42,105 nucleotides of DNA. Source: Gammaproteobacteria bacterium (GTDB taxonomy: Bacteria > Pseudomonadota > Gammaproteobacteria > Thiohalomonadales > Thiohalomonadaceae). The notes beneath the pieces are model-generated. The model saw nothing but the letters and a program-made list of their open reading frames with translations, had not been told where the DNA came from and ran no database searches. Shown here piece after piece: positions 28,420-33,197 of the stretch. The translations under genes were made by a program, and so were the position numbers. The DNA is taken from contig JAPHTQ010000036.1 in NCBI GenBank assembly GCA_026196275.1, positions 1-42,105 of the forward strand, given 5' to 3'. Every line of letters starts with the position of its first letter. Position 1 is the stretch's first letter.

Positions 28420-29184
28420 ATGATGCACGCCGCAAGCAGTACTGCCGTCAAACTCGACCAGATCAAGGTCGCCTGCAAGGATTGCAACCTCTTCCAGCTC
28501 TGTCTGCCGGTCGGGATCGATGCCCGCGAACTGGAAGAGCTGGACAACATCATCAAGCGCCGCCGTCCGGTCAAGCGCGGCGAACACCTGTTTCAGGTCG
28601 GCGACACGTTTCAGGCCATCTACGCCGTGCGTTCAGGCTCGATCAAGACCTATGCCCCCACCGAGGATGGCCACGAACAGGTCACCGGCTTCCACCTCCC
28701 CGGTGAATTGCTGGGGCTGGATGCGATCAACCTGCAACACCACCCCTGTGCTGCCAAGGCGCTGGAAACTACCAGTGTCTGCGAGATCCCTTTCGACCGA
28801 CTGGAGGAGCTTAGTGCTCGCCTGCCTGGCCTGCAGCATCAGCTGCTGAGGATCATGAGCAAGGAGATCCTGCACGATCAGTCACTGTTGATGCTGCTGG
28901 CCAAGAAGAGTGCCGAGGAGCGCCTCGCCGCACTGCTGTTAAGTCTCTCCAGCCGCTACCAGCAGCGTGGTTTCTCCCCCACCGATTTTTATCTGAGTAT
29001 GTCGCGCAACGACATCGGCAACTATCTGGGGTTGGCGGTGGAGACCGTCAGCCGCCTGTTCACCCGCTTCCAGGACGAGGGTTTGCTCAACGTCCAACGC
29101 AAACATGTCTGTATTACCGACCTGCCCCGTCTGCGTGCCGTGGCCCATACGCCGAATGGCCGTACCGATACTGACAACATCTAA
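28420..29184 (+). CDS. fnr: FNR-type oxygen-sensing transcription regulator
   Basis: A 254-residue CRP/FNR-family activator. The cluster-binding cysteines are Cys19, Cys22 and Cys28 (ACKDCNLFQLC) and Cys121 (SVCEIPF), equivalent to Cys20, 23, 29 and 122 of E. coli FNR, so it should bind an oxygen-labile [4Fe-4S] cluster and be active without oxygen. The recognition helix contains ETVSR (Glu208, Ser211, Arg212), the residues that read TTGAT-N4-ATCAA. ATG 28420 is followed directly by another ATG. It is divergent from hisB and lies upstream of the cbb3 oxidase operon, its likely target. Confidence 0.96.
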   Translation: MMHAASSTAVKLDQIKVACKDCNLFQLCLPVGIDARELEELDNIIKRRRPVKRGEHLFQVGDTFQAIYAVRSGSIKTYAPTEDGHEQVTGFHLPGELLGLDAINLQHHPCAAKALETTSVCEIPFDRLEELSARLPGLQHQLLRIMSKEILHDQSLLMLLAKKSAEERLAALLLSLSSRYQQRGFSPTDFYLSMSRNDIGNYLGLAVETVSRLFTRFQDEGLLNVQRKHVCITDLPRLRAVAHTPNGRTDTDNI

Positions 29185-29242
29185 CGGTGGCTGATGGTGA
29201 AATAACACGGTTTTTGGAAAATCTGTGGCAAATGCCGTTTAA

Positions 29243-29285
29243 TTGACAAATATCAATGTTCTGGTATCGTCCCTTCGCTTACCAT
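29243..29285 (+). promoter_or_regulatory. FNR box and -10 element upstream of ccoN
   Basis: TTGACAAATATCAA (29243-29256) matches the FNR consensus TTGAT-N4-ATCAA at nine of ten specified positions. A -10-like TACCAT lies at 29280-29285. That would start transcription near 29291, placing the box centre about 41-42 bases upstream, the standard class II activator position. The fnr gene ends 58 bases before the box. The box, spacing and adjacent regulator together make FNR control of ccoNOQP very likely. Confidence 0.85.
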
Positions 29286-29291
29286 TCATCC

Positions 29292-29625
29292 TGCTGTGAC
29301 GAAAACTTGGGGGTTTTCCTCCGCAGCACGCGGGAATCGGCGAGTAAATATCCAGGTTTTTTAAAGGTTTAAGGAAGAATCCTCAGATTTCTTCTTGAAA
29401 ACCGCCTCTCCCGCAAATTTGGCACAAATCGAGACGGCGCCTTCGCGCCGAATCACCACCAATCCCCCCATCTAAAATAGGTCTATAGTTTTCGGTAGGG
29501 TATGCATCCCGGGTGCATGCCGGCAGGTAACCAGGCAGAACGAACTGAGGGGAGGCAGCTAACCGACCATACGTATCAGTACAACCAGTGAAACGGGGGT
29601 TTGATACCTCTACTCAGCTACCTGC
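29292..29625 (+). promoter_or_regulatory. Long structured 5' leader of the cbb3 oxidase operon
   Basis: The 517-base gap between fnr and ccoN has no convincing gene. After the promoter it holds a series of stems. They are TGCTG/CAGCA enclosing GAAAAC/GTTTTC (29292-29328); GGTTTT/AAAACC enclosing GAAGAA/TTCTTC (29355-29403); CGGCGC-CTTC-GCGCCG (29435-29450); ATGCA/TGCAT (29502-29518); and a nested set GCAGGTA/TACCTGC, CTGAG/CTCAG, GTATCA/TGATAC (29523-29625). The pairings are compatible with each other. The leader ends with AGGAG before the GTG start. I recognise no known riboswitch class. It may control translation, mRNA stability or processing, or bind a small RNA or protein. Confidence 0.5.
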
Positions 29626-29701
29626 AGATCCTCTTTGGGTGGTAGCCCATGGGCATCCGTGTTCGGCATAACAACTGTGTAACAACAATAGGAGACTACT
29701 C

Positions 29702-31126
29702 GTGGCAACGACACCAGTAGAAAAATACAATTTCGACGTCGTGCGGTGGTTTACCATCATGGCCGTCGTCTACCTGGTCGTGGGTACCCTGGTGGGTGTC
29801 TACGTGGCATCGGAACTGGCCTGGCCATTCCTTAACTTCAATATGGCCGAACTTTCCTTTGGCCGCCTGCGTCCGCTGCATACCAATGCCGTGATCTTCG
29901 CCTTCGGCGGCTGTACCCTGATGGCTACTGCTTTCTACTCCGTGCAGCGCACCTGTGGCGTGCGACTGTGGAGCGACAAGATGGCCTGGTTCACCTTTTG
30001 GGGCTGGAACATCATCATCGTCGCTGCCGTCATCACCCTGCCGCTGGGGCTGACCGGCGGCAAGGAGTACGCCGAACTGGAGTGGCCGCTGGATATCCTG
30101 ATCGCCGTGGTATGGCTGGCCTATTCCATTAACTTCGTGATGACCGTCGCCAAGCGCAAAACCAGCCACATCTACGTCTCCAACTGGTTCTTCATGGGCA
30201 TGATGGTGATGATCACCTATCTGCACGTGGTCAACTCCCTGGCCATTCCGGTCAGCATGTGGAAATCCTACTCGGTCTTCTCCGGGGTGCAGGACGCCAT
30301 GATCCAGTGGTGGTGGGGTCACAACGCGGTCGGCTTCTACCTCACCGCCGGCTTCCTCGGCATCATGTACTACTTCGTACCGAAACAGGCCAACCGTCCG
30401 GTCTTCTCCTACCGTCTGTCGGTCATCCACTTCTGGGCGCTGATGTTCGGCTATGTCTGGCTGGGTGCGCACCACCTGCAGTACACCGCCCTGCCTGACT
30501 GGACCGGTTCTCTGGGTGCCGCCGTCTCGCTGGCGATGATCATCCCCTCCTGGGGTGGTGCCATCAACGGTATGATGACCCTCTCCGGCGCCTGGGATAA
30601 GCTGCGTGATGACTACATCCTGCGCTTCCTCATCATGTCCCTGGCCTTCTACGCCATGTCCACTTTCGAAGGTCCGGTCATGTCCTCCAAGACCGTTAAC
30701 GCCCTGTCCCACTACACCGACTGGACCGTTGGTCACGTACACTCCGGTGCCCTGGGCTGGGTGGCGATGGTGGCCGCCGGTGCGCTCTACCACATGGTGG
30801 AGAAGCTGTGGGACACCAAGATGTACTCTGCCAAGCTGGTAAACCTGCACTTCTGGCTGGCCACTATCGGTGCCGTGGTCTACATCACCGCCATGTGGGT
30901 CTCCGGTATCATGCAGGGCCTGATGTGGCGCGACTACGACGAGTTCGGCACCCTGACCTACACCTTCGCCGAGTCCGTTGCAGCGATGCACCCCTACTAC
31001 GCCATGCGTGCTATCGGCGGCATGATCTACTGGACCGGTGGCGCAATCATGCTCTACAACGTGGTCATGACCATCCGCCAGGCCGTCGGCCAGCGTAGCG
31101 CCTCTGTCGCTACCGCCAACGCCTAA
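29702..31126 (+). CDS. ccoN: cbb3-type cytochrome c oxidase subunit I (CcoN)
   Basis: A 474-residue catalytic subunit with twelve transmembrane helices; it reduces oxygen at a heme b3-CuB centre and pumps protons. Conserved histidines are seen in [12 protein letters not shown] (low-spin heme), [16 protein letters not shown] (CuB), [13 protein letters not shown] (CuB) and [11 protein letters not shown] (both hemes). The start is a GTG at 29702 with AGGAG eight bases upstream. First gene of ccoNOQP, behind the FNR-controlled promoter. The enzyme has high oxygen affinity and suits microaerobic growth. Confidence 0.98.
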
Positions 31127-33006: not shown

Positions 33007-33120
33007 ATGGATGCAGTAGCAATTGGCTCAATCCTGGCCGTAGTTGGCTCCGTTGTCGTACTGGTCGTACTTGGGATCCGTATCATGAAGTTGATCAACA
33101 AGACCAACTCTAAGGACTAG
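33007..33120 (+). CDS. 37-residue single-helix membrane protein, candidate cbb3 accessory subunit
   Basis: A short open frame of 37 codons starting at ATG 33007 with GAGGGG seven or eight bases upstream and ending TAG. It encodes MDAVAIGSI, a hydrophobic helix rich in Val, Leu and Ala (about 5-24), then a basic stretch RIMKLINKTNSKD, so the positive-inside rule predicts an N-out, C-in orientation. It lies between the ccoP hairpin and a clear terminator, so it is very likely the last gene of the oxidase transcript. Its form recalls the tiny CcoM subunit of Pseudomonas stutzeri cbb3 oxidase or CydX of the bd oxidase, but homology is not shown. Confidence 0.75.
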   Translation: MDAVAIGSILAVVGSVVVLVVLGIRIMKLINKTNSKD

Positions 33121-33166: not shown

Positions 33167-33197
33167 GGGGGGAGACTCTATCCCCCCTTTATTTATT
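33167..33197 (+). terminator. Rho-independent terminator of the ccoNOQP transcript
   Basis: GGGGGGA (33167-33173) and TCCCCCC (33181-33187) form a perfect seven-pair stem with a seven-base loop, followed by TTTATTTATT. A smaller stem TCCCGC/GCGGGA (33123-33140) precedes it, directly after the small gene's stop codon. Confidence 0.88.

Follow-up and report, generated by a model that had tools for sequence, protein, structure and literature searches.

The window, by which we mean the whole 42,105-nt stretch of DNA analysed here, belongs to a 2.54-Mb genome assembly. It carries the oxygen-sensing regulator gene fnr and, after a gap of 517 nt, ccoN, ccoO, a 72-aa ORF in the ccoQ position and ccoP. 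After a second gap past ccoP come ccoG, a FixH-family gene and a heavy-metal P-type ATPase gene. The names ccoQ, ccoH and ccoI are assigned at this locus by position, and profile searches returned no family match for the 72-aa ORF. A first-pass annotation had described an FNR-box-driven cco operon with a leader of about 410 nt between fnr and ccoN. This description holds: the FNR box is present in the sequence, and fnr and ccoN are identified by profile matches. The genes and elements around the gap are as follows:

28420 to 29184, + strand: fnr, oxygen-sensing regulator gene (NCBIfam NF008365 Fnr, 320.9 bits against a cutoff of 228)
29243 to 29256, + strand: perfect FNR box, TTGACAAATATCAA, whose first six bases double as a -35 hexamer (read in the sequence)
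29265 to 29270, + strand: candidate -10 element a, TATCGT, 16 nt past TTGACA and with TG ahead of it (promoter scan of 29100 to 29800)
29280 to 29285, + strand: candidate -10 element b, TACCAT (TAnnnT at offset 37 from the box start in 14 of 17 leaders)
29690 to 29701, + strand: Shine-Dalgarno region, AGGAGACTACTC, ahead of the ccoN GTG (read in the sequence)
29702 to 31126, + strand: ccoN (TIGR00780, 683 bits against a cutoff of 583.15), with start codon GTG at 29702

Further along the operon, a 37-aa ORF (window 33007 to 33120, + strand; MDAVAIGSILAVV...) lies between ccoP and ccoG and holds, by eye, a single hydrophobic, membrane-like stretch. It has no match in Pfam, NCBIfam or PDB; relatives of it were counted by eye at 46 of the 80 best ccoN loci (E <= 0.001), some of these loci being incomplete. 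In Pseudomonas stutzeri, CcoM is a subunit of the cbb3 oxidase. It is 36 aa long (PMC10433244), and the ORF is like it in size and place. On the 3′ side of the ORF, GGGGGG...CCCCCC followed by TTTATTTATT (33167 to 33197, + strand) has by eye the look of an operon terminator.

Promoter elements and leader length

Leaders were compared as a set of 17. CcoN is encoded in 19 of the 20 genomes of the same family; three of these 19 are left out of the set, namely L089, in which no FNR box was seen by eye, and L090 and L093, whose boxes (CTGACAAAAATCAA) sit about 200 nt ahead of ccoN. The L050 leader is counted in the 17 though it lies outside the family genomes. TTGACn5TCA is present in 15 of the 17 leaders, partly by construction, all leaders but L103 having been excised via such a box; the exceptions are L016, with ATGACn5TCA, and L103, which has no right half-site. 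AGGAGA is present in 17 of 17, again by construction, since the leaders were excised using this motif. Genome-wide, the strict FNR pattern occurs at 18 places versus 5 for a reversed control.

Two candidate -10 elements follow the box. TAT[CT]nT stands at offset 22 from the box start in 16 of the 17 leaders, including L099 and L103, and is absent from L016. Element b is missing in L099, L103 and L050, the last having TAATAT 2 nt earlier instead. The losses fall differently: L099 lacks the second -10 but has the FNR box and the first; in L103, TTGACA and the first -10 survive, the second -10 and the right half-site for FNR being gone; L016 has the second -10 without the first. The promoter elements rank among the best-conserved parts of the 17 leaders.

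The sequence around element a offers TTGACA, a spacing within 16 to 18 nt and TATnnT, as in an overlapping sigma70 promoter, and we infer here a sigma70-type promoter that works independently of FNR and has its -35 within the FNR box. Element b would belong to an FNR class II promoter, with FNR centred at -41.5 if the start is 29291. At the level of sequence, the box lies near -41.5 from that position and the -10 follows at a fixed spacing, which is kept in 14 of the 17 leaders. The second -10 matches the geometry of class II FNR activation. The start near 29291 is predicted from these promoter elements, and together the elements suggest two overlapping starts, near 29277 and 29291, both 5′ of the hairpin described below, with FNR switching between them. 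The scan of 29100 to 29800 detected no promoter from 29271 to 29701.

In 12 of the 19 ccoN-bearing family genomes the start codon comes 373 to 464 nt after the first base of the FNR box. Outside the family, among the best 80 of 293 ccoN loci kept from a protein search, the boxes seen by eye lie mostly 100 to 330 nt before the ccoN match, some as far away as about 450 nt, and at many of these loci no box with the pattern used was seen. The long leader is genuine, unusually long and kept in related bacteria, its length being that seen in one gammaproteobacterial family. A coding leader or an upstream ORF was set aside: ORFs of at least 20 aa that overlap the leader reach 48 aa at most, bar one antisense to ccoN, and an upstream ORF candidate of L015 is, by eye, frameshifted in L098.

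The leader DNA is recognised in only 2 of 95 genomes, its own included, and in the second over query bases 1 to 63 only (the promoter and 5′ hairpin), so the leader diverges fast. With gaps counted as mismatches, mean pairwise identity in windows of four near leaders ranges from 0.17 to 0.90 and is highest at the promoter and the Shine-Dalgarno region; in 6 of the 18 windows it falls to 0.17 to 0.29, compared with 0.84 at the FNR box. At fourfold sites, ccoN of the window is 61 to 67% identical to that of L003, L005 and L024. A separate group, the Thiohalomonas-type leaders L006, L008, L017 and L085, have a different leader in common. Its stem TTGGC/GCCAA encloses GGGCGTTG, and the changes in this stem among the four leaders are all one-sided and pair-preserving.

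The predicted 5′ hairpin and the conserved islands

Leader bodies were aligned locally and scored against 200 shuffles, with 136 pairs tested. Three islands are of interest:

29292 to 29328, + strand: 5′-terminal hairpin, island I1, with loop UUGGGG (pairing probability 0.63 to 0.97)
29346 to 29376, + strand: island I2, an AT-rich imperfect dyad followed by AGGTTTAA (strong conservation among L003, L005 and L024 at the same offset)
29576 to 29603, + strand: island I3, TCAGTACAACCAGTGAA...GGGGGTTTG (the window matches at homologous offsets in L005, 29572 to 29658, and L024, 29576 to 29592)

Matches in I1 fall at a shared offset and are reached by 1 of 200 shuffles for the window and L003, 2 of 200 for the window and L015, 3 of 200 for the window and L098, and 1 of 200 for L003 and L098. 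As 136 pairs were tested, these values alone fail a strict correction, and the argument for I1 is the shared offset. The offset of the hairpin agrees within one base in L003, L015 and L098, and a similar hairpin is found in L005 and L010. In the six leaders examined as carrying a GGGGG run (the window, L003, L005, L010, L015 and L098), this run gives the hairpin a G-rich loop: UUGGGG or UCGGGG in four leaders, AUUUGGGG in L005 and AUUCGGGG in L010.

Aligning these six leaders by hand and permitting a two-base bulge in L015 and L098 leaves 35 of 36 cells paired, with changes on both sides in 4 of 6 pairs. This alignment leaves out L024, where the G-run of the loop is lost, the Thiohalomonas-type group, which has another loop, and L103, which has GGGGG near its start. 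When similar freedoms were granted elsewhere in each leader, such pairing was reached at 5.2, 6.8, 2.7, 7.6, 10.0 and 8.0% of positions. Without adjustment, an alignment of four leaders has 22 of 24 cells paired and no both-sided changes. A MAFFT alignment of seven 5′ hairpins, in which L024 and the longer loops were misplaced, was excluded from the counts. Consensus folding predicts the hairpin over the first 110 nt of seven leaders; over the first 160 nt of 15 leaders it returns the FNR palindrome only. A covariance model built from the four leaders of the unadjusted alignment omits L005 and ranks L010 (E 1.7) after three other places (E 1.1). At the I1 site the mean z over 13 leaders is -0.8, the folding energy being non-significant in most of them. 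Support for the 5′ hairpin from sequence comparison is thus modest; it is likely a conserved element, and by analogy it may stabilise the mRNA.

The exact loop motif ACTYGGGGGTTTTC is found once each in 5 of the 20 family genomes, in 4 of these within the ccoN leader. The fifth copy, in L132, is on a different contig from the ccoN of that genome. It is the single other place in the 20 genomes, and the G-loop hairpin was rejected as a repeated regulatory element. Also rejected was a kissing interaction of the G-loop with a C-run (29464 to 29469 in the window), for which the complementarity has p of 0.44, 0.81, 0.045, 0.26, 0.96 and 0.93 in the six leaders.

The length of the leader and islands I1, I2 and I3 are kept beyond what a passive spacer would need, which suggests that some part of the leader probably does more. 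One rather unlikely possibility is a lineage-specific post-transcriptional element, in which the UYGGGG loop together with I2 and I3 would bind a C-rich small RNA or an RNA-binding protein and so tune the output of the cbb3 oxidase. The fixed offsets of the islands and the concentration of ACTYGGGGGTTTTC in ccoN leaders are consistent with this. However, the exact motif occurs in only those 4 ccoN leaders, the GGGGG loop being present in the six examined as hairpins; it marks no other operons across the 20 genomes, and pairing of the loop with the leader's own C-rich stretches is mostly at chance level (p 0.045 in L005 and 0.26 to 0.96 in the other five). A more specific form is less likely again: three islands at fixed positions, namely the UYGGGG hairpin (+1), an AT-rich dyad/AUAGGUUUAU island (about +60 to +90) and a CAGUACAWCCAGUGAA island about 290 nt in, would jointly make up a lineage-specific post-transcriptional control element of the cbb3 oxidase. 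A small RNA or protein would bind it, and the scaffold between the islands would be fast-evolving. Were the leader to control output, the enzyme for respiration at very low oxygen would come under a further layer of regulation after FNR.

I2 is strongly conserved among three relatives: the matches of L003 with L005, of L003 with L024 and of L005 with L024 are each reached by 0 of 200 shuffles. In these three leaders the dyad is followed by ATAGGTTTAT at a constant distance from the promoter, and no match to a known operator was recognised. In the window I2 is weakly recognisable by eye. That the downstream islands, I2 above all, are instead DNA operators for another regulator, an AT-rich imperfect dyad about 70 bp past the start, seems to us quite unlikely. 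Its appearance as a dyad by eye would fit an operator, as would its spacing from the promoter, which stays the same in L003, L005 and L024 despite variation in the intervening sequence. On the other hand, the dyad is weak by eye in L024 and in the window, and a search for the I2 pattern with 3 mismatches gave a single place, in 1 of 185 genomes of the class, a set in which only two genomes (G000 and G007) are from the family and L003, L005 and L024 are absent.

The I3 matches of the window with L005 and with L024 are reached by 0 of 200 shuffles in either case. The I3 pattern with 3 mismatches matches in 136 of the 185 class genomes, often above its reversed control, and this count was set aside as uninformative.

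Folding energy and the nested repeats

Two further features of the leader are predicted structures:

29499 to 29521, + strand: hairpin GGTATGCA/TGCATGCC (pairing probability 0.99 to 1.0)
29523 to 29625, + strand: three-level nest of the first-pass annotation (outer two levels predicted, innermost not; at chance level)

The first-pass annotation had presented the leader as heavily structured, with several mutually compatible stem systems. Its coordinates for the three-level nest are exact: GCAGGTA at 29523 to 29529 with TACCTGC at 29619 to 29625, CTGAG at 29545 to 29549 with CTCAG at 29613 to 29617, and GTATCA at 29573 to 29578 with TGATAC at 29602 to 29607. The folding does not bear out the rest. 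The leader from 29291 to 29701 (411 nt) has an MFE of -126.3 kcal/mol and a z of -0.94, and 16 of 100 dinucleotide shuffles fold as well. From 29287 to 29701 the z is -1.60 (60 shuffles). By segment, it is -2.42 for 29291 to 29415, -2.29 for 29291 to 29330, -1.05 for the nest (29523 to 29625) and -0.08 for 29499 to 29701, which locates the folding excess at the 5′ end of the leader. The stems are not jointly favoured: in the ensemble of the window the outer stem pairs with probability 0.75 to 0.88 and CTGAG/CTCAG with 0.92 to 0.98, and the innermost GTATCA/TGATAC with only 0.03 to 0.05.

The 17 leaders have z from -2.13 to +1.69, and twelve 411-nt control pieces 3′ of the ccoN start, mostly coding, have z from -3.29 to +2.39. 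The piece with the strongest value, -3.29, is the one containing the terminator-like repeat at 33167 to 33197. Over 133 sliding windows in 13 leaders the mean z is -0.21; the strongest of the 133 is a 70-nt window of the L058 leader at offset 224 from the FNR box (z -4.4). When up to three nested exact stems were sought, each of at least 5 bp and all within a span of no more than 112 nt, the window scored 18 bp, a total equalled or exceeded in 60 of 400 dinucleotide shuffles. The inverted repeats, including the three-level nest, are the chance yield for 411 nt of such composition. A general caution follows, namely that several nested inverted repeats in 411 nt are not in themselves evidence of a structured RNA.

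The three stems and the hairpin at 29499 to 29521 were also scored on a MAFFT alignment of the window, L005, L003 and L024, against 500 shuffles. With four sequences and hence low power, 69.7% of cells are paired versus a shuffled mean of 66.6%, a value reached by 97 of the 500 shuffles; four pairs with both-sided changes are reached by 203 and the covariation score by 119. Twelve further pair types are reached by only 41 of the 500. The structure outpairs all 6 versions slid along the alignment (24.7 to 56.6%), as expected of a structure that came from one row of four. For the hairpin at 29499 to 29521, 76.2% of cells are paired over its seven inner pairs and 50% for the outermost. RNAalifold, run on the same alignment, proposes other pairs, with a covariation term of -0.62 out of -6.62 kcal/mol. 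The covariation check thus yields no clear signal for the nest; given only four sequences, this is an absence of support and not a disproof. As a conserved unit the nest was rejected, its stems being broken or gapped in L003 and L024 as aligned, its innermost stem scarcely predicted and its pairing at chance level. L005, by contrast, has an identical GTATCA/TGATAC and, after hand alignment, retains the outer stem in the form GCGGGTA/TGCCTGC. In relatives the long leader and a few islands do recur, and conservation of the three-level nest is unsupported.

The leader had further been proposed as a new RNA sensing heme, copper or a metabolite, to which no result points. It is indeed unclassified: Rfam 15 has no match at gathering score in the whole window, and an E-value search of 28800 to 30200 returned three eukaryotic families, all under their gathering scores. 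By the scan used, none of the 17 leaders has a terminator-like hairpin, nor does the + strand from 29100 to 29800; in L003 a short GCCC/GGGT hairpin ahead of five T, seen by eye, is under the threshold of the scan. In whole leaders (17) the probability that the Shine-Dalgarno region is unpaired ranges from 0.17 to 0.71 with no common pattern, so that it is not consistently hidden. A riboswitch is accordingly unlikely: no expression platform, family match or conserved fold came to light. Despite a long leader that is kept in relatives and unclassified in Rfam, we regard a new riboswitch for heme, copper or a metabolite as very improbable, given folding energies near chance and no conserved multi-helix fold seen in the alignments.

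It is hardly credible that the FNR promoter serves a separate FnrS-like small RNA gene ending inside the gap, with ccoN under a promoter of its own: an FNR-driven RNA adjoining fnr and a long gap would suit it, but the scans detected no terminator-like site here or in the 17 leaders and the promoter scan is empty from 29271 to 29701, the relatives having been checked by eye only.

A probable ordinary long leader and its known counterparts

The folds are no stronger than chance, except perhaps for the 5′ hairpin, so that the leader is probably of an ordinary kind and not a new sensing RNA. We consider it fairly probable that the region is a long 5′ UTR of the cco operon, controlled mainly at transcription, with a 5′ hairpin that may shield the mRNA and with the remaining repeats due to chance. 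At low oxygen, FNR would load on the box at 29243 to 29256 and switch on transcription from about 29291 by class II activation. The other start, near 29277, would not depend on FNR; its -35 would be the left half of the box, so that FNR, once bound, would probably block it. From either start the predicted transcript would open with a compact hairpin. Its loop is rich in G, and it would most likely serve to shield the 5′ end of the mRNA from decay. Apart from a few short conserved islands, the remainder of the leader would for the most part be under loose constraint.

Among the open-licence papers listed on cbb3 or ccoN leaders, riboswitches, small RNAs, FNR starts and Thiohalomonas cbb3, none was seen to concern this leader; PMC9549626 deals with cco expression, not a leader. 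The nearest case is the HRC-8-4 motif of Rhodobacterales (PMC8632094), which lies between ccoNOQP and ccoGHIS, is intrinsic-terminator-like and, like the leader proposed in the first-pass annotation, is a candidate structured RNA tied to cco genes. Unlike that alphaproteobacterial motif as described there, the present leader lies upstream of ccoN and is without such a fold.

Stem-loops at the 5′ terminus can stabilise bacterial mRNAs, for example in the ompA leader. The stem-loop in the Helicobacter vacA 5′ UTR is likewise an mRNA-stabilising 5′ stem-loop (PMC4843948). Like these two, the hairpin of the cbb3 leader sits right at the predicted 5′ end; unlike them, it has a G-rich loop and is a predicted structure.

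FNR class II promoters with an overlapping sigma70 promoter are known. As in these, the box here is at -41.5 from the start predicted for a TAnnnT -10, and a second -10 takes the TTGACA of the box as its -35. Unlike those of known promoters of the kind, the starts here are predicted; the constant pairing of both -10 elements within one family is an observation of this analysis. An FNR box that doubles as the -35 of a second promoter would make a simple switch between an aerobic and a microoxic start.
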